This document shows, in pieces, positions 6,332 through 39,356 of a DNA stretch of 64,000 nucleotides (positions are counted from its first letter, which is position 1; every line of letters starts with the position of its first letter). This DNA is from Hyphomicrobiales bacterium (GTDB lineage Bacteria; Pseudomonadota; Alphaproteobacteria; Rhizobiales; Aestuariivirgaceae): assembly GCA_025359215.1 (NCBI GenBank), contig JANYHE010000024.1:1-64000 (forward strand). The letters run 5' to 3'. Position numbers and translations under genes: made by a program. Under the pieces are notes generated by a model, which had not been told where the DNA came from, did no database searches, and worked only from the letters and a program-made list of their open reading frames with translations.

Positions 6332-6349
6332 ATGTCACAAAACTTTCGC
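6332..6349 (+). promoter_or_regulatory. PHO-box-like repeat upstream of the UDP-glucose dehydrogenase gene
   Basis: ATGTCAC and CTTTCGC are separated by AAAA, giving two PhoB-type half-sites at 11-bp pitch (6/7 and 5/7 matches to CTGTCAY). The end of the box is 24 bases before the ATG at 6374. Confidence 0.5.
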
Positions 6350-12011: not shown

Positions 12012-12015
12012 TGCC

Positions 12016-12684: not shown

Positions 12685-12706
12685 GCAGAAGTGGATTGTA
12701 AGAAAC

Positions 12707-12735
12707 CTGTCATAAATCCGTTAGCCGAGTGTCAT
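12707..12735 (+). promoter_or_regulatory. Triple PHO-box-like repeat upstream of phnCDE
   Basis: Three 7-bp units at exact 11-bp pitch: CTGTCAT at 12707, CCGTTAG at 12718 and GTGTCAT at 12729. The outer units match the PhoB half-site 7/7 and 6/7, the middle 4/7. It is the best-formed PHO box in the window and sits 44 bases before the phnC start. Confidence 0.7.
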
Positions 12736-12778
12736 TTTGAATCGATACGAACTCCTTCAGTCATTGAGGAGTCGAGCT

Positions 12779-13597
12779 TTGTCCAACATTCAGATCGCAT
12801 CTCTCAGTAAGACATTTGCCAATGGCACAAAAGCTCTGAACGGACTTGATCTCAACATTCGCTCTGGCGAAATGGTGGCGTTGATTGGAGCGTCGGGTTC
12901 CGGAAAGTCAACCTTGGTACGCCATATTGCGGGTTTGATTGGATCAGATGTCAATGCGGGTACCTCAATCAATGTTGATGGTCGCATCGTGCAGGCCAAA
13001 GGCCGTATTGCCGCCGATATCCGAAATATTCGCCGCAACATCGGCGTTGTATTCCAACAGTTCAATTTGGTCGGCAGGCTTTCTGTTTTGACCAACGTGC
13101 TCACAGGTAAACTTGGACAAATGCCACTGCTTGCAGGTGCTCTCGGGAATTTCTCCCTTGCCGATCAGCAAGTCGCCATGCAAGCCCTTGAGCGCGTTGG
13201 CATTGCTGCAACAGCACGCCAACGCGCTTCAACTCTTTCTGGCGGTCAACAACAGCGCGCAGCTATTGCCCGCGCCCTTGTGCAGGGTGCCAAGGTCTTG
13301 ATCGCAGATGAACCCATCGCTTCGCTTGACCCTGCCTCAGCGCGCCGCGTGATGGAAACACTGGTTGGCATTAATCGCGAAGATGGCATTACTATTATCG
13401 TATCATTGCATCAGGTTGAATATGCGCGGCGCTTCTGCCCACGCACCATTGCCATGCAAGCTGGGCGCATTGTGTTTGATGGGCCTAGTGTGGCCCTCAC
13501 CAATGAGCGCCTGACAGAAATCTACGGCTCGGCCAGCGAAGAACTTGTGTTGCCCGATGCTGCTGATCTCAACAGTCTAAAGGCCGTTGCAGCTTAA
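12779..13597 (+). CDS. phnC: Phosphonate ABC transporter ATP-binding protein PhnC
   Basis: A 272-aa ATPase of the phosphonate importer. Walker A is GASGSGKST, the Q-loop VFQQFNLV, the signature [15 protein letters not shown], Walker [13 protein letters not shown] and the H-loop VSLHQVEYA. The start is taken as TTG at 12779 because a perfect GAGGAG Shine-Dalgarno (12766-12771) precedes it by seven bases; the frame extends to another TTG at 12737 without such support. It is 95 bases after phnL behind a PHO box, so phnCDE probably forms its own promoter unit. Confidence 0.94.
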
Positions 13598-13622
13598 GTT
13601 CAACTTAAACCAGGAGGCAGAT

Positions 13623-14624
13623 ATGAAGACTTTTATGAAAGGCCTTGCCGTTGTAGCATTTATGGCACTCGCCGTAATGCCAGCCCGTGCAGAAACCACT
13701 GAAATCAATTTCGGCTTTGTATCCAGCGAAAGCCAACAAGCGCTGAAAGATAAATACACACCATTCATCAATGAAATGGAAAAGCAAACCGGCTTGAAAA
13801 TTAATCCGTTCTTTGCAGCAGATTATGCTGGTGTGATTGAAGGTATGAAATTCAACAAGGTGCAAGTTGCAGCTTACGGCAACAAGTCTGCCATGGAAGC
13901 TGTTGATCGTTCGGAAGGCCAAGTCTTTGCCCACACGGTAAACAAAGATGGCACAGAGGGTTATTACGGCCTGCTGCTGGCCAACAAAGAAAACACTGCG
14001 TTGAACAGTGTTGACGATATCAAGAAGTGCGACAAGTCATTGGCTTTCGGCAATGGCGATCCAAACTCGACATCGGGCTTCCTTGTTCCTTCGACATTCA
14101 TTTTCTCCGCAATGAACATTGATGTGAAGACCTGCTACAAAGCAGTAACCAATGCCAACCATGAATCAAACGCCATGGCCGTTGCCAACAAGCAAGTTGA
14201 TTTTGCCACCAACAACACAGAAAATATGGCGACCCTTGAAAAGAAGGATCCTGAAGCCTTCAAAAAAATCAAGATCATCTGGAAGTCTCCTTTGATTCCG
14301 GCAGATCCATTTGTATGGCGCAAAGATTTGGATGCCAACACCAAGGGCAAGATCATGAATTTCTTTATGTCATATGGTCGTCAAGGCACCGTTGAAGAAG
14401 TGAAGGCTGCGCGCGATTTGCTCGCTGGCCTCGGCTGGTCAACATTCAAGCCATCATCTGATGCACAGCTTTACCCAATCCGTATTATGGAAGTGACAAA
14501 AGCTGCCAACAAAGTGATGGGCGATGCAGCCATGTCACAAGCTGATAAAGATGCAAAAATCAAGGAATTGATGGCGAAGAAGTCAGAATTTGAAAAACTG
14601 ATGGACACGCAGCCAAATACTTAA
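13623..14624 (+). CDS. phnD: Phosphonate ABC transporter substrate-binding protein PhnD
   Basis: A 333-aa periplasmic protein with signal peptide (MKTFMKGLAVVAFMALAVMPARA, cleavage near residue 23). The mature part shows the PhnD pattern INFGFVSSESQQALKDKYTPF and ADYAGVIEGMKFNKVQVAAYG, with ligand-loop FGNGDPNSTSGFLVPS. A strong GGAGG Shine-Dalgarno precedes the ATG. It lies 25 bases after phnC and is followed by a terminator-like hairpin before phnE, which would make PhnD more abundant than the permease. Confidence 0.95.
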   Translation: MKTFMKGLAVVAFMALAVMPARAETTEINFGFVSSESQQALKDKYTPFINEMEKQTGLKINPFFAADYAGVIEGMKFNKVQVAAYGNKSAMEAVDRSEGQVFAHTVNKDGTEGYYGLLLANKENTALNSVDDIKKCDKSLAFGNGDPNSTSGFLVPSTFIFSAMNIDVKTCYKAVTNANHESNAMAVANKQVDFATNNTENMATLEKKDPEAFKKIKIIWKSPLIPADPFVWRKDLDANTKGKIMNFFMSYGRQGTVEEVKAARDLLAGLGWSTFKPSSDAQLYPIRIMEVTKAANKVMGDAAMSQADKDAKIKELMAKKSEFEKLMDTQPNT

Positions 14625-14640
14625 AATTGCTGGGGGCATT

Positions 14641-14667
14641 TGGGCGGGAGAAATCCCGCCCATTTTT
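14641..14667 (+). terminator. Terminator-like hairpin between phnD and phnE
   Basis: TGGGCGGGA (14641-14649) pairs with TCCCGCCCA (14654-14662) across a GAAA loop, followed by TTTTT. This has all features of an intrinsic terminator, yet phnE lies just downstream in the same direction, so it probably acts as a partial terminator or 3'-end stabilizer. Confidence 0.8.
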
Positions 14668-14683
14668 CTATCGAGGCTTCACA

Positions 14684-15484
14684 TTGACCGCATCACCGAC
14701 TGACATCTCTATTCCTCCAGTTCCAGCCCGTGAGCGGTGGAGCAAGTATATCTTTTGGATGGTCATGGCTACATTGCTCGCTTGGAGTTTTGGGCCTTCA
14801 GAAATGTACAAGGCCACAGGTTTGATAACTTACGGCGGAAATATGGGCAAATATGCCAGTGGGTTTTTGGCACCAAATTTTCATGATTGGAAATATTATC
14901 TAGAAGAAATGTTGGTAACGGTGCAGACAGCGCTATGGGGCACGTTCCTCGCCGCAATTTTCGGAATGCCCATTTCGCTTTTGTGTTCAAATAACCTCGC
15001 GCCAATTTGGGTTGTTCAACCTGTGCGCCGTTTGATGGATGCGGCACGCTCGATCAATGAGTTGGTATGGGCCGTGTTCTTTGTGGTGGCTGTCGGCCTT
15101 GGCCCCTTTGCCGGAGTCATGGCAATTTTTGTGAACACATTGGGCGTATTCGGAAAGCTCTACTCCGAAGCCGTCGAAGCTTCAGACCCCCGCCCCGTTG
15201 AAGGCATTCGTGCCACGGGCGCATCAAAGATTCATGAAATCCTCTATGGTATTATTCCGCAAGTTATGCCGCTGTGGATCTCTTATACACTCTATCGGTT
15301 CGAAGCGAATGTGCGAGGAGCCACAATTCTCGGAATAGTTGGTGCTGGTGGAATTGGCCAAGTGTTGTTCGAAAATGTACGTGGTTTTTATTATGCTGAA
15401 ACTGCGGCCCTCATGTTGATGATGATCGCCACCGTCGCCATTGTTGACATCATATCGCAACAGCTTCGCCGCATCATGGTGTGA
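14684..15484 (+). CDS. phnE: Phosphonate ABC transporter permease PhnE
   Basis: A 266-aa membrane protein with about six helices and the cytoplasmic contact loop EAVEASDPRPVEGIRATGAS near residue 165. A TTG at 14684 with GAGGC just upstream is chosen as start; a longer frame from 14627 would read through the terminator hairpin and is unlikely. A single PhnE is present, so the channel is presumably a homodimer. The stop overlaps the DUF1045 gene start (TGATG). Confidence 0.92.
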   Translation: MTASPTDISIPPVPARERWSKYIFWMVMATLLAWSFGPSEMYKATGLITYGGNMGKYASGFLAPNFHDWKYYLEEMLVTVQTALWGTFLAAIFGMPISLLCSNNLAPIWVVQPVRRLMDAARSINELVWAVFFVVAVGLGPFAGVMAIFVNTLGVFGKLYSEAVEASDPRPVEGIRATGASKIHEILYGIIPQVMPLWISYTLYRFEANVRGATILGIVGAGGIGQVLFENVRGFYYAETAALMLMMIATVAIVDIISQQLRRIMV

Positions 15485-16182
15485 TGATGCGTTATGCAAT
15501 TTACTACGCTCCCGCTCGTGATAGCTTGCTGCATCGTCTAGGTTCAAGCTGGCTTGGCCGTGACGCATATACTGGGGAAAAGTTAAAACAGCCAGATATC
15601 GTTGGCATAAAGACAATTACTTCGGAGGCTGCGCATTATGGGTTGCATGCGACGCTAAAAGCTCCTTTCTCTTTGGGAGATGGTTTGCATGCTACAGCAT
15701 TGCAAGAGGCCGTAAGAACTTTCTCCTTGGTTCAGTCATCTGTCAAAGTACCCAATTTACTATTGACTGCAGAGAATGGCTTTCTGGCATTGGTTCCACA
15801 TAAAACGCAAGCGCCACTCTATCATTTGGCCGAAAATTGCGTGCGCAATTTTGATCAATATCGTGCACCTCTTACCAGTAACGAAATTGTACGCCGCCAA
15901 AATGTAGGCTTGACGCCTCAACAAAACCAACACCTCTTGGCCTTTGGTTACCCTTATGTGCTCGATGAATTCAAATTTCACATCACACTAACGAATCAAC
16001 TACCCACAAAGAAAATCGATTGGCTTATGTCACGCGCGCACCAGTATTTTGCGCCCGTTATAGGGCTAAGCGTAACCATAGATTGTCTCAGCATCTTTGA
16101 AGAAATTGAGTCAGCGCTGCCAATGACAATCACCAAACAGTTCCCTCTCGTTTTACCGCAATTCGCAAAGGCTGCCTCATGA
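15484..16182 (+). CDS. DUF1045 2H-phosphoesterase-like phosphonate metabolism protein
   Basis: A 232-aa protein of the DUF1045 family often seen in rhizobial phn clusters (TIGR03223-like). Two H-x-T-like motifs of the 2H phosphoesterase fold are visible: GLHATLKAPF near residue 58 and FHITLTNQ near 160. No phnP is present in the window although PhnP would be needed to open ribosyl 1,2-cyclic phosphate; the 2H fold acts on cyclic phosphodiesters, so this protein is a good candidate substitute. That role is inference. The gene is translationally coupled to phnE before it and overlaps phnM by four bases. Confidence 0.85.
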   Translation: MMRYAIYYAPARDSLLHRLGSSWLGRDAYTGEKLKQPDIVGIKTITSEAAHYGLHATLKAPFSLGDGLHATALQEAVRTFSLVQSSVKVPNLLLTAENGFLALVPHKTQAPLYHLAENCVRNFDQYRAPLTSNEIVRRQNVGLTPQQNQHLLAFGYPYVLDEFKFHITLTNQLPTKKIDWLMSRAHQYFAPVIGLSVTIDCLSIFEEIESALPMTITKQFPLVLPQFAKAAS

Positions 16183-17315
16183 CTGAAATTGCTTTCACCA
16201 ATGCACGCATCATTTTGTCCGATGAGGTTGTGAACGGTTCACTTTTCACTTTCGGGGGCAAAATTTCGGCGTTTGATCACGGTGCAACTAAAATCGCAGA
16301 AGACCTTGACGGCGATTATCTCCTCCCAGGTCTGGTCGAACTTCACACTGATCATTTGGAGAGCCATTTCCAGCCGCGCCCAGGTGTTGAATGGCCAGCC
16401 CATTTCGCCATCATCGCCCATGATGCGCAAATTGCGGCAGCTGGCATTACCACAGTTTTTGATGCATTACGTGCGGGTTCATTTGATCCCAGCGATATTT
16501 CTGCGCGGCAAGGAGAACATTTGGCCGCCGCCATTCATGCGGCAGAAGAAAGGGAACATTTACGTGCGGACCATTTCATCCATGTTCGTTGTGAGCTGCC
16601 TTGCCCCGACACAATTGAGGTTTTGCAAAACACGCTGGAGCAAGGCGGAACGCGCCTTATCTCTGTGATGGATCACACGCCAGGATGGCGGCAATTTACC
16701 AGCATGGATAAATTCAAAGAATATTATCTCGGAAAGAAGTTGATCCTTCCTGAAAAATTAGATGGCTACATTGCCGAAAAATTGGAAATGCAGAAGCTCT
16801 ATGCCGATAAAAACAAAGTCAAGATTCTAAAAATAGCGAGGCAACTCAATATCAGAATTGCAAGCCATGATGATGCAACGATCGCTCATGTGGAGGAAGC
16901 TCTGGGTGATGGCGCTGTGATAGCTGAATTTCCAACTTCTGCCGCATCCGCAAAGGCGGCACATGAAAAAGGGTTGGCTGTTCTGATGGGTGCGCCCAAT
17001 GTAGTGCGCGGCGGTTCGCATTCCGGAAATATTTCAGCACTGGATGTTGCCGCGTCTGGCCATCTGGATATTCTCTCTTCAGATTACGTGCCGTCTAGCC
17101 TTCTGCAAGGCGCTTTTACATTGGCCGAACGTGTCGAAGCCATCACGTTACCCAAAGCGATTTACTATGTCACTGAAGGCCCAGCCAAAGCCGCTGGTCT
17201 TGATGATCGTGGCGTCATCCAAATTGGTAAACGCGCCGACTTGATTCAAGTAAGCGTCAAATCTGGCCAACCGCTTTTGAAAAAAATGTGGCGTGAAGGC
17301 CAGCGGGTATTGTGA
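16179..17315 (+). CDS. phnM: Alpha-D-ribose 1-methylphosphonate 5-triphosphate diphosphatase PhnM
   Basis: A 378-aa amidohydrolase-fold enzyme that removes pyrophosphate from ribose 1-methylphosphonate 5-triphosphate before C-P cleavage. Metal ligands are visible in ELHTDHLESH near residue 54 and in later histidines (ISVMDHTPGWRQF, IRIASHDDAT, VRGGSHSGNIS). The C-terminus is the usual composite-domain strand, GKRADLIQVSV. Overlaps with the genes on both sides place it in one transcript with phnE, the DUF1045 gene and phnN. Confidence 0.95.
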   Translation: MTEIAFTNARIILSDEVVNGSLFTFGGKISAFDHGATKIAEDLDGDYLLPGLVELHTDHLESHFQPRPGVEWPAHFAIIAHDAQIAAAGITTVFDALRAGSFDPSDISARQGEHLAAAIHAAEEREHLRADHFIHVRCELPCPDTIEVLQNTLEQGGTRLISVMDHTPGWRQFTSMDKFKEYYLGKKLILPEKLDGYIAEKLEMQKLYADKNKVKILKIARQLNIRIASHDDATIAHVEEALGDGAVIAEFPTSAASAKAAHEKGLAVLMGAPNVVRGGSHSGNISALDVAASGHLDILSSDYVPSSLLQGAFTLAERVEAITLPKAIYYVTEGPAKAAGLDDRGVIQIGKRADLIQVSVKSGQPLLKKMWREGQRVL

Positions 17316-17866
17316 GCGGCAAACTGATTTTGGTGGTTGGCCCCAGTGGGGCGGGCAAAGATAGTGTTATTCGGTATGCCATGGAAAAATTCAAAGGTGA
17401 TCCGCAATTTTCTTTTCCGCGTCGTGTCATAACGCGGCAAGCCGATGTTACAGCTGAAGATCATGATTCAATTGAGGTGCCTGTTTTTTTGGAGCTCAAG
17501 TCGCAAGGCGGTTTGGCCCTAAGCTGGCAGGCGCATGATTTACACTATGGCGTGCCAGCCCAAATCAATAATGACCTAGCGGTAGGCAAGCACTTGATCG
17601 TCAACGTATCACGTACCATTTTGCCCGACATACCGAAGCTTTATCCCAATTATATGGTGGTTGAAATTACGGCCTCACCCGAAATTCTCGAAGCGCGAAT
17701 TTTAGAGCGCGGTCGTGCTACAGATGGTAACGTCTTTAAGCGCGCCACCCGTAAAGTCAGCGCACCGTCCTTAGATCCACGTCATTTTGTCATTCGCAAT
17801 GAGACCAGCTTGCGTGAAGCGGGCGAAGAGTTCTGTGCACTGGTGATAACTAACGCACAGAGTTAG
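17312..17866 (+). CDS. phnN: Ribose 1,5-bisphosphate phosphokinase PhnN
   Basis: A 184-aa guanylate-kinase-like enzyme that phosphorylates ribose 1,5-bisphosphate to PRPP, returning the ribose from C-P lyase to nucleotide metabolism. The P-loop is VVGPSGAGKDSVI at residues 8-20, followed by FSFPRRVITRQ, the phosphate-acceptor region of this family. It overlaps phnM by four bases (ATGA-type, GTG start) and ends the C-P lyase cluster, four bases from the convergent isomerase gene. Confidence 0.94.
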   Translation: MSGKLILVVGPSGAGKDSVIRYAMEKFKGDPQFSFPRRVITRQADVTAEDHDSIEVPVFLELKSQGGLALSWQAHDLHYGVPAQINNDLAVGKHLIVNVSRTILPDIPKLYPNYMVVEITASPEILEARILERGRATDGNVFKRATRKVSAPSLDPRHFVIRNETSLREAGEEFCALVITNAQS

Positions 17867-19314: not shown

Positions 19315-19354
19315 CCGTCATAGTCTGTTCACTGAGCCGAGCAATTTCTGTCAT
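19315..19354 (+). promoter_or_regulatory. Phased PHO-box-like repeats upstream of ugpB
   Basis: CCGTCAT at 19315 and TGTTCAC at 19326 form one box at 11-bp pitch; a perfect CTGTCAT follows at 19348, exactly 33 bp (three pitches) from the first, with the degenerate CCGAGCA between. All units are on the same helical register. It begins two bases after the preceding gene and ends 59 bases before ugpB. Confidence 0.6.
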
Positions 19355-19413
19355 TAACTTTCTCTAAGATACATTTGGGCGGGGAAGCTCATCATCAAAC
19401 ATCGGAGAGTGCC

Positions 19414-20751
19414 ATGACAAATTTTAGCTTCAGCAAGCTTGCATTTGCAACTTTGTTACTCGGTACAACATCTGCGCATGCCGCAGATAAAATTAAATTT
19501 GATTTCTGGTATGGCAACACTGGCAAAATCGGTGAAGTTGTTCAAAAGCATTGCGACCTCTTCAATGCATCGCAGGACAAGTATCAAGCCGTATGCACCG
19601 GCCAAGGCGGCTACGATAAGGCGGAGCAAAATACGATTGCAGCCTACCGCGCCAAACACCAGCCTACTGTTGTGCAAATCTATGATGCGGGCACTGTGAA
19701 TTTCATGTTGTCAGGCGCTGTGATTCCAGCGGTTCAATTCGCCAAGAATAACGGCATTGAAGTTGATTGGGCCTCCTATTTCGGTGGCATCAAGAATTAT
19801 TATGCCACGTCAAAAGGCGAAATGTGGTCCTTCCCCTACAACTCTTCAACAGCTGTGATGTACTGGAACAAAGATGCCTGGGCCAAGATCGGCAAAACCG
19901 AAGCTCCAAAAACCTGGAACGAATATGAAGCTGACTTGAAGGCCATGAAAGAAAAAGGCGTCGCATGCGGCGTTGCCTATGATTACGACACGTGGATGAA
20001 TTTGGAGCAGTTCTCTGCTGCCAATGATCTTCCAATTGCAACCATGAACAATGGCTATGATGGCTTGGGTGCAGAACTCGTCTTCAACAAGACAGCTTTC
20101 GTTGATCACATGAAGAAGTATAAGGAATGGACAGATCTTGGTTATGCCAAGCTGCAAACAGAAGCACTGGGCAAAGATATAGATCAAAGCTTTGGCGAGG
20201 GCGCTTGCGCTTCGATCATTGAATCGATTGCTGACTACAAAACCTTCAAGCAAACAGCCACGACTTTCAAATGGGGCGTAACCATGATCCCATTGCTGGA
20301 TGGTGTGTCGCGCAAAAACACATTGGTTGGCGGTGCTTCGCTCTGGGTGATGCAGGGTAAATCGAAGGAAGAATATGAAGCAGCTGCTGCCTTCCTGAAA
20401 TATGTAACCTCACCTGAAACCGGCCAAAAATACATCGTCGAGAACACTGGCTATATTCCAGTGCGCGCAGATGGTTTGGACCTGCTCAACAAAGCTAAAT
20501 TCTATGAAGATCCAAACAATGCAGGCCGTGAAGTGGCCATTCAATCCCTCACCGCTTCGAACGGCACGCCCGTCACACGCGGTGTGCGCTTAGGTAACTT
20601 CACATCCATCCGAAAAGCCTTGCGTTCTGAGTTGGAAGCTGCATTTGCGGGTCAAAAGGATATGCAAGTTGCAATTGATGATGCTGTAAAGCAAGGCAAC
20701 GATATTCTGCGCCGTTACGAACAAACTTTCAAAGGCTCGCAACTCCCATAA
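19414..20751 (+). CDS. ugpB: Glycerol-3-phosphate ABC transporter substrate-binding protein UgpB
   Basis: A 445-aa periplasmic protein with a signal peptide ending in TTSAHA near residue 24. The mature start IKFDFWYGNTGKIGEVVQKHCDLFNASQ and the conserved GQGGYDKAEQNTIAAYRAK, IYDAGTVNFML and WSFPYNSSTAVMYWNKDAW identify UgpB, the sn-glycerol-3-phosphate and glycerophosphodiester receptor. The ATG at 19414 with GGAGAG upstream is the start; the frame extends 13 codons further back without signal-peptide logic. First gene of ugpBAEC, with PHO-like repeats upstream, consistent with the known Pho control of ugp in other bacteria. Confidence 0.96.
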   Translation: MTNFSFSKLAFATLLLGTTSAHAADKIKFDFWYGNTGKIGEVVQKHCDLFNASQDKYQAVCTGQGGYDKAEQNTIAAYRAKHQPTVVQIYDAGTVNFMLSGAVIPAVQFAKNNGIEVDWASYFGGIKNYYATSKGEMWSFPYNSSTAVMYWNKDAWAKIGKTEAPKTWNEYEADLKAMKEKGVACGVAYDYDTWMNLEQFSAANDLPIATMNNGYDGLGAELVFNKTAFVDHMKKYKEWTDLGYAKLQTEALGKDIDQSFGEGACASIIESIADYKTFKQTATTFKWGVTMIPLLDGVSRKNTLVGGASLWVMQGKSKEEYEAAAAFLKYVTSPETGQKYIVENTGYIPVRADGLDLLNKAKFYEDPNNAGREVAIQSLTASNGTPVTRGVRLGNFTSIRKALRSELEAAFAGQKDMQVAIDDAVKQGNDILRRYEQTFKGSQLP

Positions 20752-20763
20752 ATCAGAGAAGTT

Positions 20764-20800
20764 GGGTGCAACCGTCGAAGTTGCACCCTTTATTTTTATT
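20764..20800 (+). terminator. Terminator-like hairpin between ugpB and ugpA
   Basis: GGGTGCAAC (20764-20772) pairs with GTTGCACCC (20780-20788), followed by TTTATTTTTATT. It lies 13 bases after the ugpB stop and 20 bases before ugpA in the same operon, so it probably lowers expression of the membrane genes relative to UgpB. Confidence 0.8.
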
Positions 20801-20819
20801 ATAGTTTGGGAGTTACGAC

Positions 20820-21704
20820 GTGGATAAACACGCGACCTTCTCCAACACTTGGCTTGCGACGGCCCTTATCATCCCACAGCTTTTGTTGGTTTTTGTTTTT
20901 TTCTATTGGCCAACTGCTGAGGCCGTCTATTGGGCCTTTACATTGGAGCAGCCGTTCGGCGGTAGCAACCAATGGGTTGGCATGCAGAATTTCCAAACAG
21001 TGTTCAACGACTCCAAATATTGGAACTCTGTGATTGTTTCGATCATCTTCGCTTTGGCTACAACAGCGCTGTCACTTATCATATCTCTTGGCCTTGCACT
21101 TCTTGTTGATCGCCGCTTGCCAGGCCATCAGCTTTTTTCATTTGCCTATTTTATTCCTTATGCCATGGCAGCCCCTGCGGCGGGATTGGCATTCAGGTTT
21201 ATCTTTGCCCCTAGTGCTGGCTTCATGGCAGCCATCAATGAGTGGTATCCAAATCTGTGGAACCCCGCGACCAATGGAAGCCATGCCTTGCTTCTGATCA
21301 TTCTCTGTCAGTCCTGGCAGTCCATAGGCTATAACTTTGTTTTCTTCTTGGCCGCTTTGCAATCCATCCCACGAACACTGACCGAAGCAGGTGCGATGGA
21401 TGGCGCCAGTGTGTTGCGCCGTATGGCCGACATCCAAATTCCTTTGGTTGCCCCCACACTATTTTTTCTCATCATCATCAATCTCACAGATAGCTTTGTG
21501 AATAGCTTTGGCATTGTCGACATTACCACCCATGGTGGTCCCGCACGCGCCACAGACTTGATGGTTTATAAAATCTATTTTGATGGGTTTAAAGCGCAGG
21601 ATTATTCGCTCGCCGCTGCTGAATCCATTGTGCTGATGTTGCTTGTCATTGCGCTCACCTTTTTCCAGTTCCGCTTCGTCGAGCGGCGCGTTCATTACAA
21701 TTGA
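20820..21704 (+). CDS. ugpA: Glycerol-3-phosphate ABC transporter permease UgpA
   Basis: A 294-aa MalF-type permease with about six helices; the EAA loop ALQSIPRTLTEAGAMDGASV near residues 180-200 is intact. The start is GTG at 20820, with GGGAG (20808-20812) seven bases upstream. It follows the hairpin after ugpB and is nine bases from ugpE. UgpA and UgpE form the channel for glycerol-3-phosphate uptake. Confidence 0.95.
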   Translation: MDKHATFSNTWLATALIIPQLLLVFVFFYWPTAEAVYWAFTLEQPFGGSNQWVGMQNFQTVFNDSKYWNSVIVSIIFALATTALSLIISLGLALLVDRRLPGHQLFSFAYFIPYAMAAPAAGLAFRFIFAPSAGFMAAINEWYPNLWNPATNGSHALLLIILCQSWQSIGYNFVFFLAALQSIPRTLTEAGAMDGASVLRRMADIQIPLVAPTLFFLIIINLTDSFVNSFGIVDITTHGGPARATDLMVYKIYFDGFKAQDYSLAAAESIVLMLLVIALTFFQFRFVERRVHYN

Positions 21705-21713
21705 GAAAACCAA

Positions 21714-22607
21714 ATGATTGAGCGCACACCAATTTTGAACTTAGTGAGCCAAGCGATTTTATGTATCGCCTTCGTTGCTATTCTCTCGCCGTTCTACATT
21801 GTCTTTGCCGCCGCCAGCCATGATTTTGTAACCGTTAACAAAGTGCCCATGCCGTTATTACCGGGCGGGCATTTGTGGGAAAATTTGAGCGAGGTCTGGG
21901 TCAAAGCCAATTTTGGCCAAGCCATGCGGAATTCTTTGATCTCCGCTGTCGCAGTGACTGTTGGCAAAATTTCATTGGCTTCGATCTCAGCCTTTTCGAT
22001 CGTGTTCTTTAATTATCGCGCACGCATGCTGGTATTCTGGCTGATCTTCATCACGCTGATGTTGCCGCTCGAAGTGCGAATTGTGCCAACTTATGCCGTA
22101 GCAGCCAATGTGTTGAGCCCGCTGAAATCAATGTTAAGTTTTCTTGGATTAAGCATCACCTTACCCGAATGGAACTTGCTCAATACTTATCCGGGCTTGG
22201 TTTTGCCACTGATCGCCACCGCGACTGGCACGTTTTTATACCGCCAATTTTTTATGACCATCCCCAATGAATTGGCCGAAGCTGCAAAGATGGATGGCGC
22301 TGGCCCAATCAGATTTTTTTGGCAGATTTTGATGCCACTTTCAAAAAGCAATATGGCAGCGCTTGCCGCCATCATGTTTGTCTATTCTTGGAATCAATAT
22401 CTCTGGCCATTGCTCGTGGTTACCGACCAACAAAATTATGCGACAGCCACGATGCAATTACAAAAACTGGTGCCCAGCGGTCAGGCCGAACCTCCTGTTT
22501 GGAATACAGCCATGGCTGCCAATCTCATTGTATTGCTTCCCCCTGCTTTGGTTTCAATTTTGCTTCAGCGCTTCATCGTGCGCGGCCTCATCTCAACTGA
22601 AAAGTGA
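21714..22607 (+). CDS. ugpE: Glycerol-3-phosphate ABC transporter permease UgpE
   Basis: A 297-aa MalG-type permease with about six transmembrane helices. The conserved loop PNELAEAAKMDGAGPIRFFW lies near residue 185-205, and RIVPTYAVAANV and SWNQYLWPLLV are typical of UgpE. Spacing to ugpA is nine bases and to ugpC six bases, so the three are in one operon. Confidence 0.95.
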   Translation: MIERTPILNLVSQAILCIAFVAILSPFYIVFAAASHDFVTVNKVPMPLLPGGHLWENLSEVWVKANFGQAMRNSLISAVAVTVGKISLASISAFSIVFFNYRARMLVFWLIFITLMLPLEVRIVPTYAVAANVLSPLKSMLSFLGLSITLPEWNLLNTYPGLVLPLIATATGTFLYRQFFMTIPNELAEAAKMDGAGPIRFFWQILMPLSKSNMAALAAIMFVYSWNQYLWPLLVVTDQQNYATATMQLQKLVPSGQAEPPVWNTAMAANLIVLLPPALVSILLQRFIVRGLISTEK

Positions 22608-22613
22608 AAACAC

Positions 22614-23735
22614 ATGTCTAACATTAGCATTCGCAAAGTTCGAAAAACTTATGACAAAAACGAAGTTGTTCATGGCGTTGATCTTGAGGTGGCGGCGGGA
22701 GAGTTTGTTGTGCTGCTCGGGCCTTCAGGTTGTGGTAAATCAACTCTTCTTCGCATGGTGGCAGGGCTTGAGGCCATTACCTCTGGTGAGATTGCCATTG
22801 GTAACAAAATCGTCAACAAGCTTGAGCCGCGAGAACGCGGCTGTGCCATGGTGTTTCAGAACTACGCACTCTATCCACACATGTCAGTTGCCGAAAATAT
22901 TGGCTATGCTTTGAAAATTGCACGTGTGCCGAAAGTTGAACGGAACGAGAAAATCAGGTCTGTGGCTGAAACATTGAACATCGCCGATTTTCTAGACCGT
23001 AAGCCGGCCCAACTCTCGGGCGGCCAACGCCAACGTGTGGCTATGGGTCGCGCCATGATCCGCGAGCCGAAAATATTTTTGTATGACGAACCTCTTTCAA
23101 ATCTTGATGCCAAATTGCGTGTGGCAATGCGTTTGGAAATTCGCAAACTCCACCAACGCTTGGGCACCACCACCTTGTTCGTGACCCATGATCAAGTCGA
23201 AGCCATGACTTTGGCAGACCGGATTGTGGTCATGAATAAAGGCATCATTGAACAAGTCGGTACACCGCTTGAAATTTATTCAAGGCCCGCTTCAGCCTAT
23301 GTCGCAGGCTTCATCGGCTCGCCCAGTCTCAACATGATCAAAGGCGTACTGAACCCTGAAACAGCGACAATTACATTGAACGATGGGCAGGCTCTCCAAT
23401 ATGACCTTAAGCGCTGGCCCAACTTGCATGCGGGTGAAATTATTGCCGGATTTAGAGCGGAAGCCGTTTCGCTTTGCAATTCATCAAAGAGCCTCACCCT
23501 TAATCCTCAATTTATTGAAGAACTCGGCGTATCCCGCCAACTGCATTGTGAATTGGCAGGCGAGCAAATTATAGTAACATCACAATCAGATCATGATGTG
23601 AAAGCTGGGATCCCGCTCCACGTCACAATCGAACCGGGACAAATTCAACTTTTTAATGCTCAAACTGGTGTTCGTCTGGAAACTGAAGTTTATGACGTAG
23701 ATGCTTCCGTCACTCAAATCCGAAAAGCGAGTTAG
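22614..23735 (+). CDS. ugpC: Glycerol-3-phosphate ABC transporter ATP-binding protein UgpC
   Basis: A 373-aa ATPase of the MalK/UgpC class. Walker A is GPSGCGKST near residue 36, the Q-loop [11 protein letters not shown], the signature [15 protein letters not shown], Walker [13 protein letters not shown] and the H-loop [11 protein letters not shown]. The C-terminal roughly 130 residues form the regulatory TOBE/MalK-like domain (GFRAEAVSL). It closes the ugpBAEC operon. No obvious terminator follows. Confidence 0.95.
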
Positions 23736-23906: not shown

Positions 23907-24302
23907 ATGATTATGTCTCAAGATAATAAAAGCGAAGTTGTTGTTCCCACTGTTTCCAAAAGCGGTAGTAAGAAGAAGTCTGAAGCTCAAAAGCTCTACC
24001 CTAAGAAATTGGACAAGAAGACAAAAGTTTCAGGGAACAAATTTGAATTTACAGGCCGCATTGACACTATCAATGTAAAAGGTTCTGGCGTTAATGGTAA
24101 TCACTTCCAATTCAGTTTGATCGACAAAAAGGGAGCACAAAAATCCTATTTGCTCGATCCAGCAGAGCCATTGCATTTTGCGACCATGGCAAACCTCTTA
24201 ACAGCAGCCACTGGTGCTGGTGCAAAAGTAAAAATTCGGTCAGTGCTGAATCCAGATGGATCCAGCTTTGCAAGCGAACTTGAAGTGCGCATAAAAAATT
24301 AA
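23907..24302 (+). CDS. Unknown 131-aa lysine-rich protein
   Basis: No family is recognized. Residues 1-45 are hydrophilic and lysine-rich (SGSKKKSEAQKLYPKKLDKKTK), likely disordered; residues about 46-131 look like a compact beta-rich domain (KFEFTGRIDTINVKG, HFQFSLIDKKG, AKVKIRSVLNP, ELEVRIKN), reminiscent of an OB-fold but this is only an impression. There is no signal peptide or membrane segment. GTGAGA precedes the first ATG; a second ATG at 23913 is possible. It lies alone between ugpC and the convergent glycosyltransferase gene, behind inverted PHO-like repeats. Its place in the phosphate island is the only functional hint. Confidence 0.7.
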   Translation: MIMSQDNKSEVVVPTVSKSGSKKKSEAQKLYPKKLDKKTKVSGNKFEFTGRIDTINVKGSGVNGNHFQFSLIDKKGAQKSYLLDPAEPLHFATMANLLTAATGAGAKVKIRSVLNPDGSSFASELEVRIKN

Positions 24303-24365: not shown

Positions 24366-25421
24366 TTATCGGCTGTGTATAAAATTCGAGACTGGCTTTA
24401 GGTGTTCAGATTCTGCTCGTTGAGTTGGCACAAGCCAATTTGCGAACATCTCAGCGGTGCGCCGCCACGTAAATTTTTGTGCCGCGGCATGCACGGTGTC
24501 ACGATCTAATTTTAATGCTCGCGTTATAGCTGCTCCTAGATTGGCGTCCATACAGCCTGTAACACCTTCTTCGATGACGTCGATCGGACTTGGTACATTG
24601 AATGCAGCCACAGGTGTGCCGCACGCCATTGCTTCGATCATCACCAAACCAAATGTGTCCGTCAGACTTGGAAAGACAAAGCAATCTGCGCTCGCGAGTG
24701 CGTGTGCATATGGCTTTTCAAAAAGGAATCCTGTAAAAATTGCTTCCGGATATTTGCTTTCCATTGCCTTGCGATCTGGTCCATCGCCAACGATCACTTT
24801 TGTACCTGGAAGTTTTGTATCCAAAAACGCCTCAATATTCTTGTCAATAATAACACGCCCAGACAGAACCATGATCGGGCGAGGCAGATCAAAGTAATCG
24901 CGTACCATTGGCTTAAACACATCGTGATCAACGCCGCGGGTCCAGGTCTTCACATTGATAAAGCCTTTGGCTTCGAGGAGTTTTGATATGGTGAGCGACG
25001 GTGTCATCACCGCGCCCGCTGGCCCATGAAAGGATCTCAGAACTGACCAGAAGAATTGATTAATACCAGGCAAAGGAATGCGCGCTTGCGCATATTCTGC
25101 AAATCGAGTGTGAAAGCTTGTGCTGAACGGAAGGTTCCGGCGCAAACAGGCCCGGCGTGCGGCCCAGCCCAATGGCCCCTCAGTTGCTATGTGAATGGCA
25201 TCGGGCTGGATCTGGTCAATTTCAGCACCAATTGTTTTTGCGCCCACAAGGCTAAGCTCAATCTCCCTGTAGGATGGAACTTTCCAATGTTTCCTGCCCT
25301 TAGGCGTTATATATTTCACCTCATGACCAATTTTGCGAAGCTCAACACCCACCGTTTGCAGCGTGCGCACAACGCCATTAACTTGCGGTGGCCAAGCGTC
25401 GGTTACGATCAGGATGCGCAT
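24366..25421 (-). CDS. GT4 glycosyltransferase, Agt/diacylglycerol glycosyltransferase-like
   Basis: A 351-aa GT-B family 4 enzyme. The N-terminus ILIVTDAWPPQVNGVVRTL and the GPLGWAARRAC block bind the acceptor; the nucleotide-sugar E-x7-E motif is in TDTFGLVMIEAMACGTPVA near residue 265-283. The best functional match by context is Agt, which makes glucosyl- and glucuronosyl-diacylglycerol in phosphate-starved Agrobacterium and is encoded next to plcP. Here its start overlaps the end of the PlcP-like gene by 44 bases, so the two are co-expressed behind a PHO-like box. A mannosyltransferase of another pathway is the alternative. Confidence 0.78.
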   Translation of the reverse strand: MRILIVTDAWPPQVNGVVRTLQTVGVELRKIGHEVKYITPKGRKHWKVPSYREIELSLVGAKTIGAEIDQIQPDAIHIATEGPLGWAARRACLRRNLPFSTSFHTRFAEYAQARIPLPGINQFFWSVLRSFHGPAGAVMTPSLTISKLLEAKGFINVKTWTRGVDHDVFKPMVRDYFDLPRPIMVLSGRVIIDKNIEAFLDTKLPGTKVIVGDGPDRKAMESKYPEAIFTGFLFEKPYAHALASADCFVFPSLTDTFGLVMIEAMACGTPVAAFNVPSPIDVIEEGVTGCMDANLGAAITRALKLDRDTVHAAAQKFTWRRTAEMFANWLVPTQRAESEHLKPVSNFIHSR

Positions 25422-26202
25422 TGCTCAGCTCTTCCAGTTGTGGTTGGTAGTGTTTCTTCCAGTCGATTATTTCAAATTGACCATCATGATGTTCGACCAG
25501 CGCTGTGCAGCTTTCTACCCAATCGCCGTCATTCAAGTAATGGATACCATCAATCATCCGATTATCAGGCGTATGGATATGCCCACAAATTACGCCCTCA
25601 CACTTCTGTAGCCGCGCTTCACGAACAATGACTTCTTCAAACCGCGAGATAAATTCCACGGCCTTCTTCACTTTGAATTTCAAATAGGCCGAGAGTGACC
25701 AATGACCGAGCCCAAAGAAGCGACGCACCGCCATGACAACAATGTTGAGATCCATCAACCGCTCGTAAGCCCAGTCGCCAAGCTTTGCGAGCCAGGGGGC
25801 AAAGTAGATAACATTGTCGAATTTATCACCATGGAGAACCAGATAGCGTTTACCCGTCACCGTCTTGTGAACCGTTTCACGCAAAACTGCGACCCGACCA
25901 AACCGGTGCCCCGCAATGTCTCTAAAGTTTTCATCGTGGTTGCCTGGGATATAAATTACGCGCGTTCCTTTGCGCGCTTTGCGCAACAGCTTTTGCAGCA
26001 CGTCATTTTGCTTCTGATCCCAGTACCAATGTTTCTTCAGTGACCAAGAGTCAATCAGATCACCAACCAAGTAGAGATAGTCACTCTCGGTTTCACGCAA
26101 AAAATCGAGCAGCGCATCACACTGCGCACGGCGTGTGCCAAGATGCATATCGGAAATGAAGATTGCTCTGAATCGCTTGGCAGAAGAAACGTTGGCTTTC
26201 AT
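25378..26202 (-). CDS. plcP: PlcP-like metallophosphoesterase (phospholipase C)
   Basis: A 274-aa calcineurin-type phosphoesterase. All metal motifs are present: ISDMHLG (residues 16-22), GDLID near 47, GNHDE near 89, HGDKFD near 123 and GHIH near 210. It lacks a signal peptide. The sequence and neighbourhood match rhizobial PlcP, which splits phosphatidylcholine and related lipids to diacylglycerol and a phosphoalcohol under phosphate starvation; the diacylglycerol then feeds glycolipid and betaine-lipid synthesis. UDP-2,3-diacylglucosamine hydrolase is a related but less likely assignment. The gene is divergent from btaA, with a PHO-like box at 26248-26265. Confidence 0.82.
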   Translation of the reverse strand: MKANVSSAKRFRAIFISDMHLGTRRAQCDALLDFLRETESDYLYLVGDLIDSWSLKKHWYWDQKQNDVLQKLLRKARKGTRVIYIPGNHDENFRDIAGHRFGRVAVLRETVHKTVTGKRYLVLHGDKFDNVIYFAPWLAKLGDWAYERLMDLNIVVMAVRRFFGLGHWSLSAYLKFKVKKAVEFISRFEEVIVREARLQKCEGVICGHIHTPDNRMIDGIHYLNDGDWVESCTALVEHHDGQFEIIDWKKHYQPQLEELSNAHPDRNRRLATAS

Positions 26203-26247: not shown

Positions 26248-26265
26248 GTGAAGACCTTATGACAT
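26248..26265 (-). promoter_or_regulatory. PHO-box-like repeat upstream of plcP-glycosyltransferase
   Basis: On the minus strand ATGTCAT is followed after four bases by TCTTCAC, an 11-bp pitch (6/7 and 4/7 matches). It lies 46 bases before the plcP start. Confidence 0.55.
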
Positions 26266-26278
26266 TTGTTTTTTTGTC

Positions 26279-26296
26279 TCGTAATTGAGTTGTCAC
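26279..26296 (+). promoter_or_regulatory. Weak PHO-box-like repeat upstream of btaAB
   Basis: TCGTAAT and TTGTCAC are separated by four bases (4/7 and 6/7 matches). It ends 57 bases before the btaA start. Together with the oppositely oriented box at 26248 it would make this a bidirectional PhoB-controlled region. Confidence 0.35.
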
Positions 26297-26353
26297 AATG
26301 GCGCCGTACCAGTTTGGCTAAGTTATCACTGATTTGTTTTGAGGAAAACGCGG

Positions 26354-27589
26354 ATGACGCTTGATGCGGCATTAGAAAACTCCACTGGGACTCTGGTTAA
26401 ATCTGCAGTTCTCCGCAATCGATTTTTAAGTGTTGATGGTTTTCTAGAGCGAGTTTTTTCATTTGCATTTCGCGGCTTAGTCTATCCCCAAATTTGGGAA
26501 GACCCTGCCGTTGATTTAGCAGCAATGGAAATTGGACCTCATCATCACATAGTTACCATTGCATCTGGTGGGTGTAATGTTCTAAGTTATTTAACAGCTT
26601 CACCTGCGAAGATTACGGCGGTTGATTTGAACCGTGCCCATGTTGCTTTAACCAAACTAAAATTAGCCGGGTTACAAAAATTACCCGGTTGGAATGCGTT
26701 TTACCGATTTTTTGGCGAGGCCGATGAATGCCAAAATATCTGTGACTACAAGCTTTTCTTGCAATCCTCTTTGGATTCGGAAACGCGCAACTATTGGGAA
26801 GGTCGCGGCCTCACAGGTTCGAGGCGTTTAAAAAAATTTCAAAAGAACATATATAAGCATGGCCTGCTCGGCCGCTTCATTGGTGTTGGCCATCGTCTCG
26901 CGAAATTTTACGGTCGCAATTTGAATGAATTCCTTGAGTGCACGACTGTTCAAGAACAGCGCAGTTACTTCGAATCTGAAATCGCCCCCTTGTTTCAAAA
27001 GCGTTTCGTGAAATGGCTGACCAACCAGAAAGTATCGCTATACGGCCTTGGTATACCGCCCGCACAATATGAAGCTTTGGCTGGCACTTCAACAATGGCC
27101 GATGTCCTCTATCAGCGCCTTGAAAAACTGACCTGTGACTTCTCGCTCAGGGATAATTATTTTGCTTGGCAGGCTTTTGGTCGCGGTTATGAGCCCGGCG
27201 CTGCAGGCTCGTTGCCGCTCTATTTGCAAACTAAAAATTTTGATCGCCTAAAGGAAAATGCATCTCGTGTTAATGTTAACCAAATCAACATGACAGCCGC
27301 GTTGCGCGCTATGCCAGCTAGCAGTGTTGATCGTATCGTTCTGCTTGATGCCCAAGACTGGATGACTGACACGCAATTGAATGATCTATGGGATGCAATA
27401 TCTCATGCCTCAGCTCCTAGGGCACGTGTTATTTTTCGTACGGCGGGTGAACCAACTATTTTGCCGGGTCGCGTTGCTGAAGCCGTGCTTAACCGCTGGA
27501 CATACTTAAAGGAGCGTTCTGCCGAACTTGGTCTTCAAGATCGTTCTTCAATTTACGGTGGATTTCATATTTATGAACTCACACATTAA
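26354..27589 (+). CDS. btaA: BtaA, SAM:diacylglycerol 3-amino-3-carboxypropyltransferase
   Basis: A 411-aa protein of the DUF3419/BtaA family, which transfers the aminocarboxypropyl group of SAM to diacylglycerol, giving diacylglyceryl homoserine, first step to the betaine lipid DGTS. Recognizable blocks are RGLVYPQIWEDPAVDLAAM, the SAM-site-like IASGGCNVLSYL ... ITAVDLNRAH, and the late VLLDAQDWM. GAGGA (26341-26345) eight bases before the ATG at 26354 sets the start; an upstream TTG is rejected. Its end overlaps btaB. Confidence 0.93.
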   Translation: MTLDAALENSTGTLVKSAVLRNRFLSVDGFLERVFSFAFRGLVYPQIWEDPAVDLAAMEIGPHHHIVTIASGGCNVLSYLTASPAKITAVDLNRAHVALTKLKLAGLQKLPGWNAFYRFFGEADECQNICDYKLFLQSSLDSETRNYWEGRGLTGSRRLKKFQKNIYKHGLLGRFIGVGHRLAKFYGRNLNEFLECTTVQEQRSYFESEIAPLFQKRFVKWLTNQKVSLYGLGIPPAQYEALAGTSTMADVLYQRLEKLTCDFSLRDNYFAWQAFGRGYEPGAAGSLPLYLQTKNFDRLKENASRVNVNQINMTAALRAMPASSVDRIVLLDAQDWMTDTQLNDLWDAISHASAPRARVIFRTAGEPTILPGRVAEAVLNRWTYLKERSAELGLQDRSSIYGGFHIYELTH

Positions 27590-28304: not shown

Positions 28305-28322
28305 TCGTCACATATTTGTCAT
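28305..28322 (+). promoter_or_regulatory. PHO-box-like repeat upstream of the aquaporin-arsC pair
   Basis: TCGTCAC and TTGTCAT are separated by ATAT: two good half-sites (5/7 and 6/7) at 11-bp pitch, 41 bases before the start at 28364. No ArsR gene or other regulator lies nearby. Confidence 0.6.
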
Positions 28323-28363
28323 GTTTGGTACGATATGAAATTAAAAAAGTTTTTTGAGCTTAG

Positions 28364-29029
28364 ATGTCTAACGCAACAACAAACCGAATTTACGTAGCTG
28401 AAACTCTAGGAACCGCAATTCTGCTGGCGAATGTCGTGGGTTCAGGAATAATGGCTGAAAAGCTTTCTGGGGGGAATGTTGCCATTGCTTTGCTTGGTAA
28501 CACCATTCCCACCGGGGCCATTCTGGTGGTCTTAATCACAATATTCGGACCAACTTCTGGAGCGCATTTCAATCCAGCCGTCTCACTTGCAATGTGTAGC
28601 GTTGGTCGCATGCCGTGGTCACGTTTTGCGCCCTATGTTGGATGTCAAATTTTTGGCGCTATGCTAGGAGTTTGGATTGCGCACGCGATGTTTGATCTGC
28701 CCATCTTTGAAGTTTCAGATAAATTGCGTTGGGGTAGAGGTCAATGGGCTGCTGAAGCTGTTGCGAGTTTTGGATTGTTGGTTACTATTTTTGGTAGCCT
28801 TCGGCATAACGCCGCCGCTGTTCCAATGTCAGTTGGGCTTTATATCTCCGCTGCCTATTGGTTTACTGCCTCGACATCATTTGCAAATCCGGCTGTCACT
28901 ATCGCGCGCGGCCTGACCGATAGTTTTTCTGGAATCTCGCCAAGTTGTGTTTTGCCTTTTATCGGTGCACAGATTGCTGGAACATTACTTGCTGTCATTT
29001 TATGCCGTTGGCTTTTTATTGAAGAGTAG
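28364..29029 (+). CDS. aqpS: MIP-family aquaporin/aquaglyceroporin, AqpS-like
   Basis: A 221-aa six-helix channel. Both half-helix motifs are present: HFNPAVS near residue 69 and FANPAVTIARGLTDSFSGI near 182. Because arsC follows three bases after its stop, it most resembles AqpS of the Sinorhizobium meliloti ars operon, which lets arsenite leave the cell down its gradient after reduction of arsenate. The gene order aqpS-arsC matches that operon, but arsR and arsH are absent here. A plain water or glycerol channel cannot be excluded. Confidence 0.85.
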   Translation: MSNATTNRIYVAETLGTAILLANVVGSGIMAEKLSGGNVAIALLGNTIPTGAILVVLITIFGPTSGAHFNPAVSLAMCSVGRMPWSRFAPYVGCQIFGAMLGVWIAHAMFDLPIFEVSDKLRWGRGQWAAEAVASFGLLVTIFGSLRHNAAAVPMSVGLYISAAYWFTASTSFANPAVTIARGLTDSFSGISPSCVLPFIGAQIAGTLLAVILCRWLFIEE

Positions 29030-29032
29030 AAG

Positions 29033-29440
29033 ATGGATATTGTAATTCATCATAACCCCGATTGCGAGACATCGCGCAATGTGCTCGCCTTCATAAAAGC
29101 AGCGGGTTACCAGCCTACGGTGATTGAGTATCTCAAAACAGGCTGGAGGAAAGAACAACTTTTAGGCTTGTTTGCCGCAGCGGGTCTTTCACCCAAATCA
29201 GCATTGCTCGAGACAAAATCTCCAACGCGAGAGCTTGGCTTGCTGGAAAAGGATGTCACCTCCGATACTATTCTTGAAGCCATGATTAAACATCCTGTAT
29301 TGGTTAACAGACCCATCGTTTACACAGGACGAGGTGTCAAACTCTGCCGACCCAGTGAAGCGGTCATTGAACTGCTCGATCAACTGCCTAATGTACCATT
29401 TCGTAAAGAGGATGGTAAGTTAGTTGAATTCAAGTCTTAA
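29033..29440 (+). CDS. arsC: Arsenate reductase, glutaredoxin-dependent
   Basis: A 135-aa ArsC of the glutaredoxin-coupled family, reducing arsenate to arsenite. The catalytic cysteine is Cys11 in HHNPDCETSRN; the arginines of the anion site lie in TKSPTRELGL, LVNRPIV and LCRPSEAV. It is co-transcribed with the aquaporin channel. Because arsenate enters through phosphate uptake systems, expression from a PHO-like box would prepare the cell for the arsenate influx that comes with high-affinity phosphate uptake. Confidence 0.93.
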   Translation: MDIVIHHNPDCETSRNVLAFIKAAGYQPTVIEYLKTGWRKEQLLGLFAAAGLSPKSALLETKSPTRELGLLEKDVTSDTILEAMIKHPVLVNRPIVYTGRGVKLCRPSEAVIELLDQLPNVPFRKEDGKLVEFKS

Positions 29441-29772: not shown

Positions 29773-29847
<75 letters not shown>

Positions 29848-38711: not shown

Positions 38712-39356
38712 ATGATTAAATTCCTGAAAGCCTTTGTACCAGTATTCTTTGCTCTTACCTGTCTGTTGGTGCCACAATTGCAAGCAGCCAACAAAATTCC
38801 TTCAATTCAATTGACAGCGGAACAACAACAGTCAGTCAACAGGATCAGCGACTACATCAATAGTTTTCAGACTTTGCGCAGTGATTTCACCCAAATAAGT
38901 CCAAAGGGCACGGCGTCGCGCGGTGTGCTTTTGATCAGCAAGCCCGGTAAATTGCGTTTTGAATATGCAGCCCCCAATCCACTCCTCATCGTGTCTGATG
39001 GTAAATGGCTGACGATTAAAGACCGGGTCCGTGAAAAGGGCGATCAGTTCCCACTCTCGGCTACCCCACTGCGTCTTGTGGTTTCACCAAAGATTGATCT
39101 TCTAGCGGAAACCAACGTTATTGCTTTCGAATCAAATGGAGGTGTTACCAGTGTGTCATTGGCTGACCGCAAAGACAGTTTGGGTGGTTACATCACAATG
39201 ATTTACGACGAGCAGGCCAACCAATTGCAGCAATGGGTGATTGTCGATGGCAAAGGTCGCAGAACCACGGTGCAACTGGCCAATATCGAAATTGGTGGCA
39301 AGTTTGACCCCAAGCTATTTGTAGGTGTTATCAATCGCCCCGAAAAAAGCAATTAG
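38712..39356 (+). CDS. lolA: Outer-membrane lipoprotein carrier protein LolA
   Basis: A 214-aa periplasmic chaperone with a signal peptide (cleavage after LQAA near residue 25). LolA features are visible: INSFQTLRSDFTQISPKG, GVLLISKPGKLRFEYAAPNPLLIVSDGKWL and the late DGKGRRTTVQLANIE. It carries lipoproteins from the inner to the outer membrane. It follows ftsK by 80 bases, the usual alphaproteobacterial order ftsK-lolA-xthA. Confidence 0.92.
   Translation: MIKFLKAFVPVFFALTCLLVPQLQAANKIPSIQLTAEQQQSVNRISDYINSFQTLRSDFTQISPKGTASRGVLLISKPGKLRFEYAAPNPLLIVSDGKWLTIKDRVREKGDQFPLSATPLRLVVSPKIDLLAETNVIAFESNGGVTSVSLADRKDSLGGYITMIYDEQANQLQQWVIVDGKGRRTTVQLANIEIGGKFDPKLFVGVINRPEKSN

Follow-up and report, generated by a model that had tools for sequence, protein, structure and literature searches.

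An aqpS-arsC pair without arsR, probably under phosphate control, at the end of a phosphate-starvation island in a Hyphomicrobiales bacterium

The usual assumption about a resistance gene is that its poison induces it, and this locus raises the question of which signal governs an arsenic gene pair that has no arsR beside it. In the window, which is the whole stretch of 64,000 nucleotides analysed here, aqpS and arsC adjoin, as an earlier note made from the sequence had described; they lie on the forward strand with 3 bases between them. The same note had proposed that phosphate, not arsenic, controls the pair, and several lines point the same way: a PHO matrix trained independently of the site, the phosphate-starvation (Pho) island around the genes, the PHO boxes before ArsR-less aqpS operons in relatives, and the fact that neither an ArsR of arsenic type nor its operator could be recognised. 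The pair is probably an arsenate-detoxification unit of the Pho regulon, which would be driven by PhoB without an arsenic sensor. The features at its centre are:

28305-28322, forward strand: PHO box of aqpS, TCGTCAC-ATAT-TTGTCAT, third-ranking site of the window (13.1 bits)
28329-28334, forward strand: possible -10 element TACGAT, 6 bases past the box, proposed from reading the sequence
28364-29029, forward strand: aqpS, aquaglyceroporin-like channel of 221 aa with two NPA motifs
29033-29440, forward strand: arsC, glutaredoxin-type arsenate reductase of 135 aa

AqpS matches the MIP profile PF00230 with 74.7 bits (cut-off 25, E 1.2e-20) and scores 73.3 with the NCBIfam MIP model TIGR00861, under its cut-off of 171.25. 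The MIP profile, the two NPA motifs (NPAVS and NPAVT) and the linkage to an ars gene, which together define an AqpS-type channel, are all present. ArsC scores 55.4 with PF03960, above the gathering cut-off of 24, 101.4 with TIGR00014, just under the cut-off of 106.05, and 121.7 with NF007456, under the cut-off of 242, and its PDB matches are the arsenate reductases 1sk0 and 1i9d at 3e-32 to 4e-32. In an alignment with relatives the protein retains Cys11, Arg93 and Arg106, and its residue 59 is Leu, at a position where all 22 comparable relatives have Arg and one further row is gapped. We take the roles of the catalytic cysteine and of three arginines from E. coli R773 ArsC, with Leu59 placed at the equivalent of Arg60; mutants of the plasmid R773 enzyme at this site reportedly keep some activity. 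The activity of ArsC is unsure, because Leu59 replaces an otherwise invariant Arg; this could be a real change or adaptation, or it could reflect decay of the gene or an error in the sequence. Downstream of arsC a tRNA-Gly lies on the opposite strand (29773-29847).

The 18-bp PHO-like box that had been reported before aqpS is confirmed as the direct repeat TCGTCACATATTTGTCAT, which lies 41 bases 5' of the aqpS ATG. It was scored with a PHO matrix trained without the window, on both strands of the plcP-btaA intergenic regions of 14 further genomes from the genus; the fit started from the PhoB consensus, and the fitted consensus is CCGTCACACAGCCGTCAT. The aqpS site, which is not in the training set, ranks 3rd among about 128,000 window positions, and rank 4 when the spacer columns are masked. 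By matrix score and by its distance from the ATG, aqpS thus has the PHO box at promoter position that marks a member of the Pho regulon. In the gap that separates btaB from aqpS, the consensus scan listed no promoter of sigma-70 type. Two simpler detectors were replaced by the trained matrix. The plain consensus CTGTCATN4CTGTCAT gave 7 matches in the window at up to 3 mismatches against 5.65 expected, which is not above chance, and the aqpS box was not among them; with 10 of 14 matching positions, it would have been missed by the plain consensus alone. A hand-made pattern gave 80 matches against 79.9 expected; the aqpS site and one other were a single mismatch away from it.

In first-order random sequence (30 runs), 1.2 sites of at least 13.1 bits are expected by chance per 64 kb on both strands, and the window has 3, so the chance of such a site in a given gap of about 100 bp is about 0.002. 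Sites of at least 10 bits number 17 against 6.4 expected, 13 of them in positions 1-29440 and 4 in the rest of the window. A box that is a functionless chance match before a constitutive pair is unlikely: one site or so of this score is expected in any 64 kb, and PhoB of E. coli reportedly has many inert intragenic sites (excerpts of PMC10294691), but the position, the orientation, the island context and the recurrence of the box argue against chance. In 49 kb of other loci of the same genome, two sites are as strong as the aqpS box. The own pstS promoter reaches only 5.9 bits with the matrix. One of the two strong sites, with 19.7 bits, lies inside a gene that looks GST-like (L043 7635-7652, G000:C114 from 13634); either it counsels care with the matrix or PhoB has a site within this gene. 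Within the window, PHO-like sites outside the Pho island are found at 58766-58783 (reverse strand, rank 2) and 39142-39159 (forward strand, rank 5).

The core pattern YGTCAYN5YKTCAY has 20 perfect matches in the 3.02-Mb genome against 7 for a reversed control, a count that is only supporting because the pattern was partly chosen and loosened after the aqpS site had been seen. Four of the 20 lie outside ORFs of at least 70 aa and have an ORF in the same direction starting no more than 200 bases further on. Two of these ORFs are plcP and aqpS, a third encodes a member of the PhoX family (PF05787), and the product of the fourth resembles, by eye, the binding protein of a transporter. The genome encodes one PhoB protein (326.4 bits, over the cut-off of 296.2), and another of its loci reads phoR-pstSCAB-phoU, with the PBP assigned by family match and the other names by eye.

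The pair forms the end of an island with phn, ugp, agt, plcP and btaAB genes, which are of types typical of phosphate starvation. The names btaA, btaB, plcP and agt are our assumption for these genes, and the phn genes other than PhnJ and the ugp subunits other than UgpC are presumed largely from position. The features of the island are:

6332-6349: PHO-like site before the UDP-glucose dehydrogenase gene, rank 4
6374-7567, forward strand: UDP-glucose dehydrogenase family gene, by family match
8330-17866, forward strand: phosphonate (phn) cluster, PhnJ by family match PF06007
12718-12735: PHO-like site before phnC, rank 10
19315-19332: PHO-like site before ugpB, rank 6
19375-23735, forward strand: ugpBAEC glycerol-3-phosphate transporter, UgpC over cut-off
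24366-25421, reverse strand: agt-like glycosyltransferase, by profile search
25378-26202, reverse strand: plcP-like metallophosphoesterase, PF00149, divergent from btaA in relatives
26248-26265, reverse strand: PHO box of plcP, 15.0 bits, rank 1 in the window
26279-26296, forward strand: PHO box of btaA, 10.6 bits, rank 13
26339-27589, forward strand: btaA-like gene (DUF3419) of betaine lipid synthesis, PF11899, 364.8 bits
27528-28265, forward strand: btaB-like methyltransferase, by profile search, beside btaA in relatives' loci

The gene aqpS starts 98 bases past the end of btaB and runs in its direction, and the scan lists no terminator-like site in this gap. The pair could then be the tail of the btaAB operon, reached by read-through, with no PhoB site of its own and an incidental box. 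We consider this improbable in view of the score and position of the box, and of relatives in which ArsR-less aqpS operons that do not stand behind btaAB still carry one. Even read-through alone would leave aqpS-arsC under Pho control, by way of btaA.

The junction of btaAB with aqpS is seen only in the window's genome. Among the 37 genomes of the genus, btaA is present in 16 and a close AqpS in 12, and no aqpS lies near btaA in the fetched stretches (up to 20 kb) of the 15 other genomes that have btaA. In G003, which has the third-best btaA match with the own genome included, an opposite-strand gene directly follows btaB. A second arsenic-phosphate junction in the genus is phnN-arsC-aqpS of G017 (L055 9399-11084), where an LMW-type arsC and aqpS stand directly behind phnN and no arsR was found. 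Outside the genus, a betaproteobacterial MAG has agt-, btaB- and btaA-like genes adjoining an arsR-LMW arsC-aqpS operon (L133 3224-8663). The aqpS of marine Rhodobacteraceae was dropped as a member of a pst operon, pstA and pstC lying about 6 kb off on the other strand.

The aqpS operons of relatives were collected from a search of the genus and order, which gave an AqpS match in 46 of 61 genomes, and from named loci. Only the 22 genomes with strong AqpS loci were used, weaker AqpS matches being treated as other MIP channels and left out; of the named loci the best 80 of 113 were kept, and L052, on the same contig as L066, was dropped. The PHO score is the best forward score from 200 bases before to 60 bases after the start of the first gene, and 884 control promoters from the same loci as the 101 aqpS operons served for comparison. 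Near-identical loci are present (for example L108 and L113, L088 and L104, L099 and L100), so the operon counts are not independent. The contigs of L027, L047 and L053 end near the operon.

A PHO score of at least 12 bits is found in 22 of the 101 aqpS operons against 7 of the 884 controls, and is distributed over 14 of 57 ArsR-less operons and 8 of 44 with an upstream arsR. At 14 bits or more the counts are 9/57 and 8/44 against 5/884, and at 16 bits or more 5/57 and 4/44 against 4/884. Matrices with permuted columns (200 trials, 12 bits) gave a mean of 0.56 operons and at most 4, and the opposite strand gave 1; the plain consensus with at least 12 of 14 matches is found before 8 of 101 aqpS operons and 4 of 884 controls. 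Control of aqpS-arsC by PhoB is, judging from these promoters, likely to be recurrent among relatives. One cultured carrier with the box is Alsobacter metallidurans (L076), whose aqpS operon has a PHO score of 14.2 bits and in which no ArsR was found.

In the genus, all 8 ArsR-less aqpS operons reach 12 bits against 1 of 4 with arsR, a split with a one-sided Fisher probability of about 0.018 at a cut-off that was not preset, the 12-bit line having been chosen with the window's own score (12.8 in the operon scan) in view. The split becomes 5/8 against 1/4 at 13 bits and 4/8 against 1/4 at 14 bits, and two of the eight sites are weak as promoters, that of G034 lying at -170 inside an ORF and that of G017 within the last part of phnN. 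Beyond the genus, 12 bits are reached by 6 of 49 ArsR-less operons and by 7 of 40 with arsR. A general difference in PHO score between operons with and without arsR was rejected (Mann-Whitney p 0.51 over the 101 operons), because several arsR operons carry the box too; the separation holds only in the genus. A test of independent pairs on the AqpS tree, with 7 pairs on well-supported branches, was not significant. The AqpS genes of the genus occupy several places in this tree and are not one lineage, and 45 of its 98 inner branches are weak. The ArsR-less set of 57 includes 9 operons for which an ArsR does occur within 2.5 kb, either divergent or at a greater distance, all with PHO scores of 0.8 or less. 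ArsR was identified with a home-made profile, which other ArsR types could escape.

In 44 of the 101 aqpS operons arsR lies upstream on the same strand, often with an LMW-type arsC behind it. The arsR operons yield the palindrome ATATTTC-N10-GAAATAT, often at -22 from arsR, which as an ArsR operator of at least 12 bits is found in 34 of the 44 (leave-one-out) against 13 of the 884 controls. Among the ArsR-less operons it occurs in 1 of 57, which is L073 with a divergent arsR, and in none of the 15 with a PHO score of at least 11. Among arsR operons with a PHO score of at least 11, the operator is also present in 7 of 9, the exceptions being L059 and L083. In these composite promoters the operator starts between a 1-base overlap with the PHO box and 14 bases past it, and this layout of box then operator would suit an activator that binds at -35 together with a repressor that covers -10. 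A cultured carrier of the composite type is Silicimonas algicola (L117), with 11.4 bits for the PHO box and 32.5 for the ArsR operator. The sequence before aqpS in the window has no such operator, the best score being 0.6 bits. A perfect ATATTTC-N10-GAAATAT palindrome does occur in the own genome inside an ORF (G000:C118:47888-47911; L178 1501-1524).

Taken over these loci, aqpS-type arsenate detoxification may well be a recurrent and authentic output of the Pho regulon, mainly in Alpha- and Betaproteobacteria. Its promoters would form a series from ArsR operator only, through a PhoB-and-ArsR composite of AND type in which an ArsR operator directly follows the PHO box, to PHO box only, where the repressor gene has gone as well as its operator. 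The window's genome would belong to the last kind: its arsenic resistance would not respond to arsenic at all, and phosphate hunger would switch it on beforehand.

The absence of arsR near aqpS, which the earlier note had reported for the window, holds: neither an arsR in or beside the operon nor an ArsR operator in the promoter, the two marks of a classical ars operon, is found at aqpS-arsC. That note had also advised a search elsewhere in the genome, which is 99.2% complete, and six ArsR-family (HTH_5) proteins were found, none of them an obvious arsenic sensor. One of the six might act on aqpS from a distance. The protein on contig C51 (L038 2896-3211) has an ArsR-type operator at its own start and an aldehyde dehydrogenase-like neighbour; it contains no cysteine, and with this neighbourhood it was dropped as the lost partner of aqpS. 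By eye the others are metF-linked, a sulfide regulator (which we take to be BigR-like), MarR-like or SRPBCC-linked, that is, regulators that do not look arsenic-related. BLAST shows neither aqpS nor arsC in the stretches around the six genes, and an ArsR query from the genus gives only weak matches in the own genome (best E 1.9e-6, to a protein without cysteine). With the operator maximum of 0.6 bits before aqpS, a distant ArsR acting in trans is very unlikely, even though six candidates exist and one has a matching operator. ArsB, Acr3 and a second glutaredoxin-type ArsC were not recognised in the own genome, and one LMW phosphatase-family protein is encoded elsewhere in it.

MIP channels can carry glycerol, and AqpS could serve the phosphate-starvation programme itself, for example by glycerol passage in lipid remodelling, with arsenic secondary and ArsC perhaps decaying. 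The neighbouring lipid-remodelling genes and Leu59 of ArsC would fit this, as would the 27 of 101 operons in which neither an arsC-type gene nor arsR was typed beside aqpS. We hold it to be quite unlikely, given the arsC partner here and the arsC-type or arsR partner typed beside aqpS in 74 of 101 operons, the own one included.

For an arsenate-detoxification pair driven by PhoB, the expected course is as follows. Under phosphate limitation, phosphorylated PhoB would bind the box at 28305-28322 in place of a -35 element, and transcription of aqpS-arsC would start. The btaAB operon just upstream consists of phosphate-starvation lipid genes and would itself be PHO-driven, so that read-through from this second PHO promoter may contribute as well. 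Arsenate is a phosphate look-alike and enters cells as such, and high-affinity phosphate uptake would also bring more of it in. ArsC would then reduce arsenate to arsenite, and AqpS, with its predicted conduction, would let arsenite out down its gradient. No arsenic sensor would take part in this loop, the arsR gene and its operator having presumably been lost or never having come along.

The gene order of the Sinorhizobium meliloti operon is reportedly arsR-aqpS-arsC-arsH (Yang, 2005). In that operon AqpS replaces ArsB and the arsenite made by ArsC leaves by the channel (excerpts of PMC6205960 and PMC4435449), which is the arrangement expected here, but the window pair has no arsR, ArsR operator or adjoining arsH, and has instead a PHO box and a Pho island. 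A partial precedent for a phosphate-linked pair is Pelagibacter HTCC7211, whose LMWPc_ArsC-AqpS pair comprises the only arsenic genes that its authors found, and whose reductase is raised 2.3-fold in phosphate starvation and not by DMA (excerpts of PMC6426599); it differs from the window pair in that its reductase is of LMW type and weakly induced. The terms 'PhoB' and 'Pho regulon' are absent from the main text of that paper.

A Pho box on another arsenic gene is described in excerpts of PMC7533571, where PhoB binds such a box at the arsenite oxidase genes aioBA of Halomonas HAL1. The aioBA genes of Halomonas HAL1 and Agrobacterium resemble the window pair in having PhoB and a Pho box on an arsenic gene, but they serve arsenite oxidation and not an arsC-efflux pair, and arsenic sensors are also involved in Agrobacterium. 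Arsenic islands carry pst and phn genes (excerpts of PMC3834237) and share with the window the neighbourhood of arsenic and phosphate genes; their core is made up of aio genes and of ars operons, arsRCB for example, whereas in the window a Pho and lipid island ends in a small arsenic tail. In Agrobacterium 5A, ArsR1 represses phoB1 and pstS1 (excerpts of PMC7965956). In the open-access literature, partly in excerpt, related claims were found and no report of PHO boxes replacing ArsR at aqpS/arsC operons, nor was a paper found there that treats aqpS, arsC and PhoB together; the main text of a paper on phosphate stress in Sinorhizobium (PMC5127829) has no mention of aqpS or of arsenate. The outline is thus of a kind already known; what looks new is the recurrence of the switch, together with the composite promoters.

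The likely signal at this locus is a nutrient whose uptake admits the poison. Such phosphate wiring could help to account for the association of arsenate reductase genes with low phosphate in the sea, and it would caution against deducing exposure to arsenic from the presence of ars genes. Promoters that combine PHO box and ArsR operator offer a directly testable model for the rewiring of a toxin response to a nutrient signal.

The island also contains a 131-aa protein at 23907-24302, which has no NCBIfam or Pfam match. Homologues with 36-48% identity stand convergently against the 3' end of btaB in four genomes of the genus (G005, G010, G027 and G017), and it is possibly a Pho-linked protein of a new type.
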